Shown one piece after another: positions 2,982 through 43,703 of a stretch of DNA of 64,000 nucleotides. The stretch comes from Synergistes jonesii (lineage in GTDB: Bacteria > Synergistota > Synergistia > Synergistales > Synergistaceae), in NCBI RefSeq assembly GCF_000712295.1, contig NZ_JMKI01000026.1, forward strand, positions 1-64,000, written 5' to 3'. The notes below the pieces were generated by a model, which did no database searches, was not told the DNA's origin, and saw only the letters and a program-made list of their open reading frames with translations. The position numbers and the translations under genes are program-made. Each line of letters opens with the position of its first letter. Within the stretch, counting starts at the first letter, position 1.

Positions 2982-4342
2982 AAAAGGCGAAAAGTAAGAA
3001 AACAAAAGAAGAAGTTATGCCTGAAGCAGTCTCCCCAGCATCCAAAGAACCTGAGGGCGCCGAAAATGTGTATGATATTCTGAACGAAGAGCCGAAGCCG
3101 GAGGAGATTGGACTTTCGGAGAACGGCGAGATCGATGAAATTGCTATCGACGAGCCCTCTGGCGACGATTCCGATTTGATGAACGCCGTATCCAAGGGGG
3201 AAGGAGACGATGACGCCGCCCGTCTCGGAGAGGGCGACGATCAGGATTCCGTCGATTACAGCGCGTATATCGACAATGTGCGCGAACTGCTCCACGAGGG
3301 ACGCGAAAAGGGCTTCGTCACATACGAGGATATAGAAAAGAGGATGCCTAAGGACTTCCTCACGGCCGATATACTCGATAATCTCTATACTAACCTGATG
3401 GAACTCGGCGTCGACGTACTGGACGAGCCGAAAACAAAGGTCGACCCGTCAGAGGGAGAGGCGCTTATCCCAGGTGCGGTGAGCAGCGAAGAGATAGGAG
3501 ACCTTGAAGATCTGCCTCTTTCCGATCCTGTGCGCATGTACCTGCGTGAGATAGGCAAGATACCTCTGCTCACTTCGGAGGATGAAGTCGTGCTTGCAAA
3601 GGGCGTCGAAGCGGGCGACAACTCCTGCAAGGACAAGCTCGTGGAGGCAAATCTGCGCCTCGTCGTCAGCATTGCGAAAAAATACATAGGGCGCGGGATG
3701 CTTTTTCTTGACCTTATTCAGGAGGGCAACCTTGGACTGATACGCGCGGTCGAAAAGTTCGATTATCATAAGGGCTACAAATTCAGCACCTACGCGACTT
3801 GGTGGATTCGCCAGGCGATCACGCGTGCAATAGCCGACCAGGCCCGCACGATACGCATCCCCGTGCATATGGTCGAGACGATAAACAAACTGATACGCGT
3901 ATCCCGCCAGCTCGTACAGCGCCTCGGGCGCGAGCCTACAGCCGAAGAGATAGCGAAGAACATGGAGGTCGATCCGAATCGCGTAGAAGAGATACAGCGC
4001 ATCGCTCAGGAACCCGTCTCACTTGAGACTCCTATAGGAGAGGAGGAAGACAGCCAGCTCGGCGACTTCCTTGAGGACAAGGACCTTCCGAGCCCTGAGG
4101 AGGCGGCCGCGAGCCAGATTCTCCGCGAGCAGCTCGATGAGATGCTCGACGACCTGACGGACAGGGAACGTGAAGTGCTCCGCCTGCGCTTCGGCCTGGA
4201 AGACGGGCACGCTCATACGCTCGAAGAGGTCGGGCGCCGCTTCGGTGTAACGCGCGAGCGCATCAGGCAGATCGAAGCGAAAGCGTTGAGAAAGTTGAGG
4301 CATCCGAGCCGCAGCAAAAAGCTGAAAGATTTTATTGAATGA
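2978..4342 (+). CDS. rpoD: Primary RNA polymerase sigma factor (sigma-70, RpoD)
   Basis: Housekeeping sigma factor of 454 aa. The first ~170 residues are very acidic and contain a region 1.1-like segment. Region 1.2 begins at [11 protein letters not shown]. Region 2 contains the helices that melt and read the -10 element ([41 protein letters not shown]). Region 3 follows with [12 protein letters not shown]. Region 4 ends with the -35-recognition helix ([18 protein letters not shown]). Length and motif order fit a primary rather than an alternative sigma factor. The start overlaps the dnaG stop, implying translational coupling. Promoters elsewhere in this window with TTGACA/TATAAT-like boxes are those this factor should read. 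Confidence 0.98.
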
Positions 4343-39849: not shown

Positions 39850-42339
39850 TTATCTGTCGTTTTTCCTTTTGAACCATTTAACTATTTCCCACCAGAACGT
39901 CGCGCAGGCGGCGATCAAAAGAGCGGCGGCGAATTCCGCGGGGCTCAACGGCTTGAGCTTTGCGGGGCGCGCCGCCTGCGGCAGCAGAGAAAGCGCCGTC
40001 AGGCATAGCAGGACGCCGGCGTTCACGAGCCACGCGATCATATCGGTAGAGGCGCTTTTTCCGGCGAAAGCGAAGTCTTTATCGGAGCGGTTGACGTAGA
40101 CGAGAAAGAGGTTAGAGAGCACGAGCACCGTCAGGAAGAAGGTCCTCGCGTGCTCGGCTCCTCCTCTTGGAAGCGCCGCGCAGTAGGAGTCGAACGCGGC
40201 GGCGAAAATCGCCGATCCCTGGGCGAGCGCCTTGCCGAGCAGTTTGGCGGTGATTATCGGCGCGCCGGTCTGTCGCGGCGGCCTCTCCATTATGTCGCGC
40301 TCCTCGGGCTGGCGTTCGAAGACGATCGAACAAGTCGGATCGATTATCAATTCGAGCAGGGCGACGTGCAGCGGCGCGAGCACCGCCGGAAGCGCGAGCA
40401 GCGGCGCGGCGAGAGCCGATAGCGCGATCGGGATGTGAATCACGAGGATGTATTCCATAGCCTTTCTGATGTTGTCGTAGATGCGGCGTCCGTCGCGTAT
40501 AGTGCGGACGATTGTGGAGAAGTCGTCGTCGAGCAGAACCATGTCGGCCGCTTCACGCGCGACGTCAGTGCCGCGTCCTCCCATCGCTATTCCTATGTCC
40601 GCGTATTTGAGCGCCGGCGCGTCGTTGACACCGTCGCCGGTCATCGCGACTACTTCGCCGCGCGAACGCAGCGCGCTGACTATGCGCATCTTTCCGCGCG
40701 GCAGCACGCGCGAGAAGATCGTCACATCACCGAGCTTTTCGTCGAGTTCGTCCGGGCTCATTTTTTCGAGTTCTTCGCCGTTTATCATCACGTGCTCCTT
40801 CTCGCCGCAGCCGAGCCCTATGTCGTGCGCTATGCGGTGGGCGGTGACGCTGTTGTCCCCGGTTATCATGACGACGCGCACTCCGGCGCTGCCGCATGCT
40901 TTGATCGATTCTGCGACGTTCCTGCGCGGCGGATCGGAGAAGGCGGCGAGCCCCGCCAGGCGGAAGCGGCATTCGTTCATTTTTTCGGGGATGCCGCACA
41001 TCTCGTCGTTGTAGGCGACCGCGAGCACACGGCAGCCGGCCTCGGCGAGGCGTCTTTGTTCGCGCGAAGCCGCCTGCCGTTCGCTGTCGCTGAGGGCGCA
41101 GAGGGCAAGTATATTTTCCGGCGAGCCCTTCGCGGCGGCCGTTATTTTTCCTTTGTACGACCAGACGTGGCACATCATCCGCGATTCTGACGAGAAGGGG
41201 TATTCGTGCAGCAGACGTTGCCCCTGCAGCAACTTTACGTTGATGTTTCTTTTCAGCGCCTCGTCGAGCACGGCGCGCTCCATCGGGTCGTAAGGGTCCG
41301 TCTCAGAAGCCAGCACGGATACCTCGGCGAGTTTTTTGACGGAGGTTCCTGCGAGCGGGACGAATTCCTTGAGCGACATGCGGTTTTCGGTGAGGGTACC
41401 GGTCTTGTCGACGCATAGCACCGTAACGGCGCCGAGCGTCTCGACGGACGGGATGCGCCTTATCAGCGCGCTGCGCTTCGCGAGCCTCCAGGCGCCGAGC
41501 GCGAGGAAGACGGTGAGCACGACGGGGAATTCCTCCGGGATCGTCGCCATCGCTATCGTTACTCCGGCGAGCACGGCGTCTATCGGGCTGCTCCCGCGGT
41601 AATAGGTCGCCGCTATCACGAACGCGAGCATCAGCATGCTGAAAAGGGAGCAGTCGCGCACGAGGCGGCGCGTCTGCCTTTCGAGCGGCGTAGGACGCTC
41701 CGGGGCGCTTGCGACGTCGGAAGCTATCTTGCCGTACTCCGTGCGCGCGCCGGTGTCGAGCACGCGCACTACCGCGCGTCCAGCGACTGCATTCGTCCCC
41801 GCGTAGCAGCGGTCCGTGCGCCAAACGCCGCCGCCCTCCGCCGGCGCGCAGCTCTTCCAGACTATATCCGACTCGCCGGTCAGCGCCGATTCGTCGACGC
41901 CGAAACCGTCGTTTTCGAGTATCTCTCCGTCGGCCGCGACGCGTTTACCCTCCGATACGACGATTATATCTCCGGGAACTAAATCCTCCGAAGCGATCTC
42001 GACCGTATATCCGCCGCGACGCGCCGTGACCTTCGGAGAGGAGAGCGATTTCAGCGTTTCCAGCGTTTTATCGGTCTTCCACTCTTGGTATATGTTTATC
42101 GCGCTCATGAATATCACAAACGCGAGCATGACGGCGCCGTCGCGCGGCTCGCCGAGCAGGAAGTAGATGCACGCCGCGCCGGTCAGCAGCAGGAATATCG
42201 GCTCAAGAAAGGACTTGAGTGCCTTTTTCAGGCGGCTCTCCCTTTCGCCGTCGACAAAGCTGTTGCTGCCGTATTTTGCGCGGCGTCTGAGCACTTCCTG
42301 CTCATCCAGCCCGTGATATTTTTCATTTATCTCTGTCAT
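39850..42339 (-). CDS. P2-type cation-transporting ATPase, probably transition-metal efflux
   Basis: An 829-aa P-type ATPase with phosphorylation motif VLCVDKTGTLTEN, actuator TGES in LTGESDIVWK, and hinge TGDGVNDAPALKYADIGIAMG. The fourth membrane helix has IPEEFPVV where Ca2+ pumps have PEGLP. The sixth helix reads ELIIDPTCSIVFE rather than the NxxTDG Ca2+-site motif. This subgroup is often labelled calcium-transporting, but the leader upstream looks like a NiCo (czcD) riboswitch, which points to export of Co2+, Ni2+ or Fe2+. That assignment is inference from regulation and altered ion-site residues. No N-terminal heavy-metal-binding domain is present. The start at 42339 lies about 50 nt after the leader terminator. 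Confidence 0.88.
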   Translation of the reverse strand: MTEINEKYHGLDEQEVLRRRAKYGSNSFVDGERESRLKKALKSFLEPIFLLLTGAACIYFLLGEPRDGAVMLAFVIFMSAINIYQEWKTDKTLETLKSLSSPKVTARRGGYTVEIASEDLVPGDIIVVSEGKRVAADGEILENDGFGVDESALTGESDIVWKSCAPAEGGGVWRTDRCYAGTNAVAGRAVVRVLDTGARTEYGKIASDVASAPERPTPLERQTRRLVRDCSLFSMLMLAFVIAATYYRGSSPIDAVLAGVTIAMATIPEEFPVVLTVFLALGAWRLAKRSALIRRIPSVETLGAVTVLCVDKTGTLTENRMSLKEFVPLAGTSVKKLAEVSVLASETDPYDPMERAVLDEALKRNINVKLLQGQRLLHEYPFSSESRMMCHVWSYKGKITAAAKGSPENILALCALSDSERQAASREQRRLAEAGCRVLAVAYNDEMCGIPEKMNECRFRLAGLAAFSDPPRRNVAESIKACGSAGVRVVMITGDNSVTAHRIAHDIGLGCGEKEHVMINGEELEKMSPDELDEKLGDVTIFSRVLPRGKMRIVSALRSRGEVVAMTGDGVNDAPALKYADIGIAMGGRGTDVAREAADMVLLDDDFSTIVRTIRDGRRIYDNIRKAMEYILVIHIPIALSALAAPLLALPAVLAPLHVALLELIIDPTCSIVFERQPEERDIMERPPRQTGAPIITAKLLGKALAQGSAIFAAAFDSYCAALPRGGAEHARTFFLTVLVLSNLFLVYVNRSDKDFAFAGKSASTDMIAWLVNAGVLLCLTALSLLPQAARPAKLKPLSPAEFAAALLIAACATFWWEIVKWFKRKNDR

Positions 42340-42386
42340 TTGTCCCTCGCCTCGTGATGCGCGGCCGCATGTATTTGCATGAAAAT

Positions 42387-42425
42387 GCGGCCCGCGGAAT
42401 CGTTTTTAACGGTCCCACGGGCCGC
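42387..42425 (-). terminator. Riboswitch expression-platform terminator
   Basis: On the minus strand the arms 42425-42408 and 42404-42387 pair over 18 positions with two G-U pairs and one C-A mismatch, loop AAA, then ATTTTC. The wobble pairs form only in minus-strand RNA, so this is the transcribed strand. The 5' arm contains the P4 and P1 strands of the adjoining aptamer, making the two folds mutually exclusive. Confidence 0.75.
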
Positions 42426-42526
42426 GAATTTTATCCGCCCGCTGCCGGGTTGTCGTCCCGGCCCAGCCGCACGCCTTCGCCGACTTCAGAAATATCCGAA
42501 CCGCCGGCGGGAGTCGCCTGCTCCAT
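42409..42526 (-). promoter_or_regulatory. NiCo (czcD-type) riboswitch aptamer
   Basis: Read 5'-3' on the minus strand: AGCAGGCG (42522-42515); P2 hairpin with arms 42509-42503/42484-42478 and inner stem TTCGG/CTGAA; GCGGCTGGGC ending at 42461; P3 hairpin 42461-42457/42449-42445; GGCAGC (42446-42441); P4 42441-42437/42422-42418; and TGGGAC (42417-42412). The order and the conserved joining segments (GCAGGC, GCYGGGC, GCARC, TGGGAC) match my recollection of the NiCo riboswitch, whose G-rich internal loops bind Co2+/Ni2+ and reportedly Fe2+. P1 is short (ATGG/CCGT). Ligand binding would sequester the terminator's 5' arm and switch the ATPase gene on. A covariance-model search would decide. Confidence 0.7.
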
Positions 42527-42541
42527 GTTTAATTGAACAAC

Positions 42542-42570
42542 ATTCTAAATTAAGGGCGCCCTGTTGTCAA
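42542..42570 (-). promoter_or_regulatory. Promoter of the riboswitch-P-type ATPase unit
   Basis: Consensus TTGACA (42570-42565) and TAGAAT (42547-42542) with a 17-bp spacer. The spacer contains the 10-bp palindrome AGGGCGCCCT. Transcription would begin near 42535, just before the aptamer. Confidence 0.75.
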
Positions 42571-42587
42571 ATTCTGACGACTTTACA

Positions 42588-43703
42588 TCAGCGCATCGCC
42601 GCCGCGGGCTGCCTCCTCGCGTCGCGCTCTCGCGTCATCAGCAGCTGAAATACTTGAACGCCGCGCGCTCGGAAGACTCCGGCGCAGCATAAGAGGTAAT
42701 ACTCCCACATGCGGCGGAAGCGCTCGCCGTATTTATCCGCGAAGGCTGGCCACGCTTTTATGAAATTCCTGTACCAGCAGAGCAGCGTTTTGTCGTAATT
42801 ATCGCAGAGGTTTTGCAGATCCTCTATCACGAAGAGCCCTTCGGCGGAAGAGCTCATCTGGGCGATTGACGGCAGAGCGCCGTTCGGGAAGATATATTTA
42901 TTCAGCCACGGGTCGCAGTTCAGCCCTGACGCGTTCGAGCCTATCGTGTGCAGTAGAAAGAGGCCGTCCTTTCTCAGCACGCGGTGCGCGGTCTCCATAT
43001 AGGCGCGGAAATTTTTCTGCCCGACGTGCTCGAACATGCCGACGGAGATGATCTTGTCGTACTCTCCTTTTATTTCGCGGTAGTCGCAGTCGATGAATTC
43101 GACCGGCAGGCCTTTGCACTCTTCGCGCGCGAACGCGAGCTGCTCTTTGGAAATGTTCACGCCTGTGACGCGGCAGCCGTAACGCAGCGCCATGTACTTT
43201 GCAAGGCCTCCCCAGCCGCAGCCTATGTCGAGCAGGTTGTCTCCCTTTCTGAGCTCGAGCTTCTTTGCGATCAGCTCAAGCTTGTTTACCTGCGCCTGGG
43301 CAAGGTCGTCTGTGTCCTTGAAATACGCGCAGCTGTACTGATGCAGCGGGTCGAGGAAGGAGAAGAAGAAGTCGTTCCCAATGTCGTAATGCCCTTCGGC
43401 TACTATACGGCTGCGGGAACGCGACTGAAGGTTCAGCAACTTAGCGGGGAGGAAAAGCAGCGCATAGCGCGGACTCCCCTTGATGTCGTATTCTACGCCG
43501 CATTTCAGGATGCGGCAGAGCAGTTCGTCAACGCGGCGGCAGTTCCACCATCCGTCCATATAGCTCTCTCCGAGGCCGAGGCTCTTTTCCGCGATGACGC
43601 GGTGGTAAAAGCCGTCATTGACGATCTGCGGGTCCCACTCGTGCGGCCCGTTAAACTCTATGCCGACGCTTGCCAGCCTTTGCTGGACAATTTTTGGAAA
43701 CAT
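42588..43703 (-). CDS. cfa: Cyclopropane-fatty-acyl-phospholipid synthase
   Basis: SAM-dependent enzyme that methylenates unsaturated acyl chains of membrane phospholipids. Visible motifs: YDIGNDFFFSFLDPLHQYSCAYF (bicarbonate/substrate region), LLDIGCGWGGLAKYMA (SAM motif I), VTGVNISKEQLAFA, and ISVGMFEHVGQKNF. At 371 aa it is close to E. coli Cfa. A GTG at 43712 is in frame, but the ATG at 43703, 7 nt after GAGGT, is preferred. A TATAAT at 43784-43779 and the dyad TTTCTTTGACAAAGAAA just upstream mark the promoter region. Confidence 0.94.
   Translation of the reverse strand: MFPKIVQQRLASVGIEFNGPHEWDPQIVNDGFYHRVIAEKSLGLGESYMDGWWNCRRVDELLCRILKCGVEYDIKGSPRYALLFLPAKLLNLQSRSRSRIVAEGHYDIGNDFFFSFLDPLHQYSCAYFKDTDDLAQAQVNKLELIAKKLELRKGDNLLDIGCGWGGLAKYMALRYGCRVTGVNISKEQLAFAREECKGLPVEFIDCDYREIKGEYDKIISVGMFEHVGQKNFRAYMETAHRVLRKDGLFLLHTIGSNASGLNCDPWLNKYIFPNGALPSIAQMSSSAEGLFVIEDLQNLCDNYDKTLLCWYRNFIKAWPAFADKYGERFRRMWEYYLLCCAGVFRARGVQVFQLLMTRERDARRQPAAAMR

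Follow-up and report, generated by a model that had tools for sequence, protein, structure and literature searches.

A NiCo-class riboswitch overlapping a transcription terminator precedes a P2-type cation-transporting ATPase gene in Synergistes jonesii

Results

The window (the whole stretch of 64,000 nucleotides analyzed here) contains, on its minus strand, an intergenic region bounded by a cyclopropane-fatty-acid-synthase-like gene, which ends at 42588, and a P-type ATPase gene, which starts at 42339. On this strand, to which all features below belong, a promoter, a NiCo aptamer, a terminator, a Shine–Dalgarno-like GAGGG (42344..42348, read from the sequence), and the ATPase gene follow one another. 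The consensus promoter that an earlier note on this DNA had claimed was indeed found directly upstream of the aptamer. Its −35 hexamer TTGACA (42565..42570) is separated by 17 nt from the −10 hexamer TAGAAT (42542..42547), which amounts to 11/12 consensus matches over both hexamers, and transcription would be expected to start near 42534. A TTGAC…−10 pair of similar kind is located directly upstream of the aptamer in most relatives of the same bacterial family.

The aptamer had been recognized in the earlier note from motif blocks (AGCAGGCG, GCGGCTGGGC, GGCAGC, and TGGGAC) and the accompanying hairpins, all of which are in place on the minus strand. The covariance-model search proposed there yielded a match to the NiCo riboswitch family (RF02683) at 42408..42535, covering the full length of the model (positions 1–96 of 96) with 43.5 bits, compared with a gathering score of 37 bits. 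The E-value was 1.6e-6 when the 64-kb window was searched against 4227 Rfam families, 1.6e-8 when RF02683 alone was searched against the whole genome, and 6.2e-9 when the search was restricted to the intergenic region. This was the sole NiCo match in the whole 2.74-Mb genome. For the intergenic region, Rfam listed NiCo alone, which was the best match within clan CL00122 and was overlapped by one match from the same clan with a lower score. A score of 43.5 bits is modest for NiCo, as many copies from Clostridia reach 60–80 bits. Judged by its sequence, the element is a NiCo-class riboswitch and was correctly identified; the class itself is already known. An orthologous element in a genome of the same genus (G172; L021/L042) scored 36.2 bits, just under the cut-off of 37, so that a clear homologue would escape routine annotation.

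The aptamer consists of four helices around a four-way junction. P1 is formed by AUGG (42523..42526, from the Rfam alignment) and CCGU (42409..42412), with an additional C-G pair inside, and the Rfam NiCo model likewise draws it as four pairs plus C-G. The earlier note had considered a P1 of 4 bp unusually short. This was not borne out: counted as contiguous pairs outward from GGGAC in those NiCo elements with a readable P1, 4 is the commonest length (range 2–6), both in Synergistota and in other phyla. The P2 arm (42465..42518) has a base of GGC/GCU (42518–42516/42467–42465) plus an A-U and a C-G pair above a G·G mismatch, followed by an enlarged upper stem of ∼40 nt; this extended P2 deviates from the consensus. 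P3 is a hairpin of GCCGGG-ACGACAA-CCCGGC (42444..42462, from the Rfam alignment), and P4 one of GCGGGC...GCCCGU (42417..42442; strands 42442–42437/42422–42417), the closing pair of which is a G·U wobble in the window copy.

Two junction strands stand out by their conservation: GGG, comprising J2/3 and the first base of P3 (42462..42464), was present in every element parsed, and GGGAC, comprising J4/1 and the start of the P1 3′ strand (42412..42416), was found in all elements examined. The GGG within both strands is thus shared by the window copy and every relative parsed. By analogy to the crystallized aptamer (PDB 4RUM), both strands are expected to carry metal-binding guanines; that of J2/3 would match G45–G47, and a residue-by-residue mapping of the window guanines to G46, G47, G87, and G88 of 4RUM can be inferred.

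Among ten relatives of the same bacterial family, 97.7% of the cells in P1 to P4 were paired, and when the pairing partners were slid by 1–3 columns as a control, paired cells fell from about 97% to 25–51%. P1, the base of P2, and P3 are nearly invariant in the ten family elements and therefore neither support nor contradict pairing. In P4, four of the six pairs were changed on both sides among the ten relatives, and these compensatory changes were more numerous than in the slid controls and in all, or almost all, of the shuffles.

The aptamer runs directly into an intrinsic terminator hairpin (42387..42425), with the 5′ arm at 42425–42408 and the 3′ arm at 42404–42387, followed by AUUUUC, that is, by a short U-tract. 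The stem of 18 positions described previously was recovered as 17 pairs and one C·A mismatch (−29.9 kcal/mol), and its direction is fixed, as had been argued, by two pairs that are U·G and G·U in minus-strand RNA and mismatches on the other strand. The 5′ arm holds the P4 and P1 strands on their 3′ side, in agreement with the earlier reading, and also the entire J4/1; 10 paired nucleotides, belonging to P4, P1, and the C-G pair that adjoins P1, are common to this arm and the aptamer. Thus, the complete aptamer and the terminator are mutually exclusive. The proposed layout of an ON switch is kept in relatives: GGGAC was located inside the terminator arm in 47 of 48 NiCo elements examined, which came from Synergistota, Clostridia, Coriobacteriia, and others, and in the one exception (L090) the terminator scan found none. 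In the ten family elements, the terminator showed compensatory changes in five pairs (11 cells), again more than in the slid controls and in all, or almost all, of the shuffles. The C·A mismatch (42412 and 42400) is kept in ten of ten family members and pairs lower down in the stem covary; this conserved mismatch may tune terminator strength against P1.

When folding of the growing transcript was computed (ViennaRNA), P1 and P4 reached probabilities of about 0.5 and 0.6, respectively, with the aptamer just complete, and the terminator reached 1.0 once its full arm had been made. For the isolated aptamer stretch, forcing the aptamer fold cost 8.2 kcal/mol relative to the best thermodynamic fold. 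This poor standing is no peculiarity of the window copy, the range in the family being 0 to 15 kcal/mol, and the deficit does not argue strongly against function because energy models omit the metal-bound junction.

The gene governed by this region (39850..42339) starts 68 nt past the aptamer and encodes a protein of 829 amino acids. The earlier assignment as a P-type ATPase was confirmed by its domains (E1-E2 ATPase, Cation_ATPase_N, and Cation_ATPase_C) and the presence of DKTGT; the gene is intact, and the assignment could be refined to a P2-type cation-transporting ATPase with an altered ion site. The protein stayed under every curated transporter-specific cut-off, those for Ca2+ and P1B heavy-metal types included. 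Assignment as a Ca2+-transporting PMR1/SERCA equivalog was rejected (TIGR01522, 499.8 of 798.3 bits; TIGR01116, 388.2 of 703.4 bits), as was assignment as a heavy-metal P1B ATPase (TIGR01525, 261.5 of 346.25 bits), the M4 motif being PEEFP and not of the CPC/SPC type.

Among proteins of solved structure, Listeria LMCA1 and human ATP2C1 come closest. The ion site comprises PEEFP (E269 and E270), H635, E663, and D667. Aligned to LMCA1, the Asn of M5 is replaced by H635, the Asn of M6 by E663, and the Ala after the M4 Glu by E270; among the Ca2+ ligands of M4–M6 (M5 Asn, M6 Asn and Asp), D667 alone is kept. By SERCA numbering, I638 takes the place of a Glu that belongs to the first of the Ca2+ sites in SERCA. 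None of E269, E270, H635, E663, and D667 varies among nine Synergistota proteins, the motifs PEEFP, HxP, and ELIID were found again in most relatives read, and every full-length relative has an intact reading frame. As a His and acidic residues have been gained and the SERCA site-I Glu is absent, the sequence suggests a single ion site with a His ligand, fit for a divalent transition metal.

NiCo elements were present in 22 of 188 Synergistota genomes. These contained 24 elements, 10 of which precede this type of ATPase, 12 a CDF-type gene (six confirmed with Pfam), and two lie at contig ends. The NiCo-linked P-type ATPase occurs in nine Synergistota genomes besides that of the window, complete in eight and running off a contig end in one. 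In the bacterial family of the window, eight loci (window included) have the ATPase, and two genomes (G127 and G128) have a CDF gene. In the latter two (L027 and L028), a near-identical riboswitch precedes the CDF exporter; the output gene has been swapped under a conserved switch. In the simplest reading of this comparison, one and the same metal sensor can have either the ATPase or the CDF as its output, the two being interchangeable. One Synergistota genome (G119) carries the NiCo–CDF locus three times on contig 1 (5255–5337, 2730525–2730609, and 2756313–2756397), with the downstream genes conserved; as all are near contig ends, duplication or assembly overlap is possible.

In the genome of the window itself, no match to Cation_efflux (Pfam) was found, and the CDF family appears to be missing. 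This genome encodes four P-type ATPases, and the three besides the window protein appear from their sequences to be of the P1B type. One of them (L131, contig 51) is unusual in its M4 motif, VDYSCAIKLATP, which lacks the customary CPC; besides it, CopA-like and ZntA-like pumps are encoded elsewhere in the genome.

Outside Synergistota, NiCo was found before the ATPase gene in all 14 of the nearest relatives scanned, in 9 of the 16 next relatives (for one, L071, the match lies upstream at a distance of about 2.2 kb), and in one of the 14 distant relatives. The pairing of switch and pump is thus old and common, and no local oddity. One of these loci (L057, from Acetobacterium sp.) has molybdenum (1295–1411), fluoride (2756–2815), and NiCo (3790–3884) riboswitches on the same strand within 2.6 kb.

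Discussion

The identity of the aptamer, the mutually exclusive folds, the promoter, and the linkage to the ATPase gene are established at the level of sequence and comparison. Members of the NiCo class mediate metal-dependent antitermination of exporter genes, and in 4RUM Co2+ is bound by four conserved guanines (PMC7689651; PMC7917058). Taken together, we consider it highly probable (about 0.93) that the element is a NiCo-class (czcD) metal riboswitch that works as an ON switch of transcription for the gene of a divalent transition-metal exporter. As a member of this class, the window RNA would be predicted to bind Ni2+/Co2+ (or Fe2+) cooperatively, with read-through depending on the metal. 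We infer metal binding, the direction of the response, and the exporter function for the window system as follows. RNA polymerase would begin near 42534 and transcribe the four-helix aptamer first. Without metal, the downstream complement would capture the 3′ strands of P4, J4/1, and P1, so that a strong terminator would form and transcription end short of the gene. At high levels of free metal, ions at the guanines of J2/3 and J4/1 would lock the four-way junction, keeping P4 and P1 together; the 5′ arm of the terminator would then stay occupied, the polymerase would read into the ATPase gene, and the P2-type ATPase would pump the metal out. Most likely, the window switch activates expression of a membrane metal pump as a metal such as iron, cobalt, or nickel accumulates in the cell.

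Two readings without such a response, or with a different RNA, fare poorly against the data. That the element is a constitutive intrinsic terminator or attenuator, or a decayed NiCo aptamer no longer binding metal, would fit its modest score, the relative of the same genus below the cut-off at 36.2 bits, and the extended P2 off the consensus. However, decay would be expected to lose the junction strands, yet GGG and GGGAC show no variation, in contrast to the covarying P4 and terminator, and the ATPase frame remains intact in all full-length relatives; we regard this explanation as highly improbable. An ordinary terminator only is ruled out by the full-length NiCo match together with the conserved junction strands. 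Less credible still is a chance match or a different RNA class, be it the yybP-ykoY manganese riboswitch or some other member of CL00122. Other metal riboswitches do control similar ATPases (PMC11477304), and a lower-scoring match from the same clan overlaps the element, but NiCo is the best match in the clan (E 6.2e-9) with its full-length architecture, and no manganese riboswitch match was found anywhere in the genome of the window; at the level of sequence models, this explanation is refuted.

The metal-responsive ON switch for an exporter is compatible with more than one ligand, and sequence alone cannot choose among Fe2+, Co2+, Ni2+, and Mn2+; Fe2+ or Co2+/Ni2+ are the leading candidates. 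With the switching mechanism unchanged, the physiological ligand in this anaerobe could be Fe2+ (or Mn2+); the ATPase would then export iron (or manganese), and Ni2+ and Co2+ would be ligands in vitro only. To this possibility we assign a little less than an even chance. The class was first described as Ni2+/Co2+-selective in the original reports on Clostridium, which speaks against this possibility, but later work on the affinities of a czcD riboswitch relative to cellular metal levels favored Fe2+/Mn2+, and the NiCo-linked ATPase of Listeria gave Fe2+ resistance (PMC7689651); elsewhere, the class has been named the Fe2+ riboswitch (PMC11477304). The lack of both CDF and manganese riboswitch matches in the genome points the same way, as does the ion site with its His and acidic residues and without the SERCA site-I Glu, which is compatible with a single transition-metal site. 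His and carboxylates, however, fail to separate Fe2+ from Mn2+, Co2+, and Ni2+. We put forward, more tentatively still, that the NiCo-linked ATPases with PEEFP, HxP, and ELIID might constitute a distinct branch of transition-metal (probably Fe2+) exporters within the otherwise Ca2+-type P2 ATPases, and that the RNA in these anaerobes might be an iron, not a nickel/cobalt, switch. As near-identical switches in one family control either the ATPase or the CDF gene, the two proteins probably share a substrate metal, and comparing them offers a route to what the NiCo class senses in anaerobes.

The closest known NiCo (czcD) copies, those of an Erysipelotrichaceae bacterium (PDB 4RUM) and Clostridium scindens, were reportedly described by Furukawa et al. 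in 2015. The window copy shares with them the four helices, the four-way junction, and the GGG strands, as well as the overlapping terminator, the ON logic, and the exporter gene downstream (PMC7689651; PMC7917058). It differs in its longer P2 arm, a P1 of AUGG/CCGU instead of ACUG/CAGU, a G·U at the base of P2, and the gene controlled, which encodes a P2-type ATPase and not a CDF protein. A NiCo aptamer also precedes the gene of a P-type ATPase metal exporter in Listeria monocytogenes (LMO3448, PfeT-like; PMC7689651), but this pump is of the P1B type, whereas that of the window is of the P2 type with PEEFP. Likewise, the yybP-ykoY manganese riboswitch turns on YoaB-type P-type ATPase exporters (Lactococcus; CD2503 of C. 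difficile; PMC11477304), with an aptamer different from NiCo and without a match in the genome of the window. LMCA1 (lmo0841), the closest solved relative, shares the overall P2 architecture (396 bits across almost the full length), but its Ca2+ site is not conserved in the window ATPase (PEA/PEE, M5 Asn/H635, and M6 Asn/E663). Set beside these systems, the locus adds a chromosomal NiCo switch from Synergistes and links the class, across several phyla, to a branch of P2-type ATPases.
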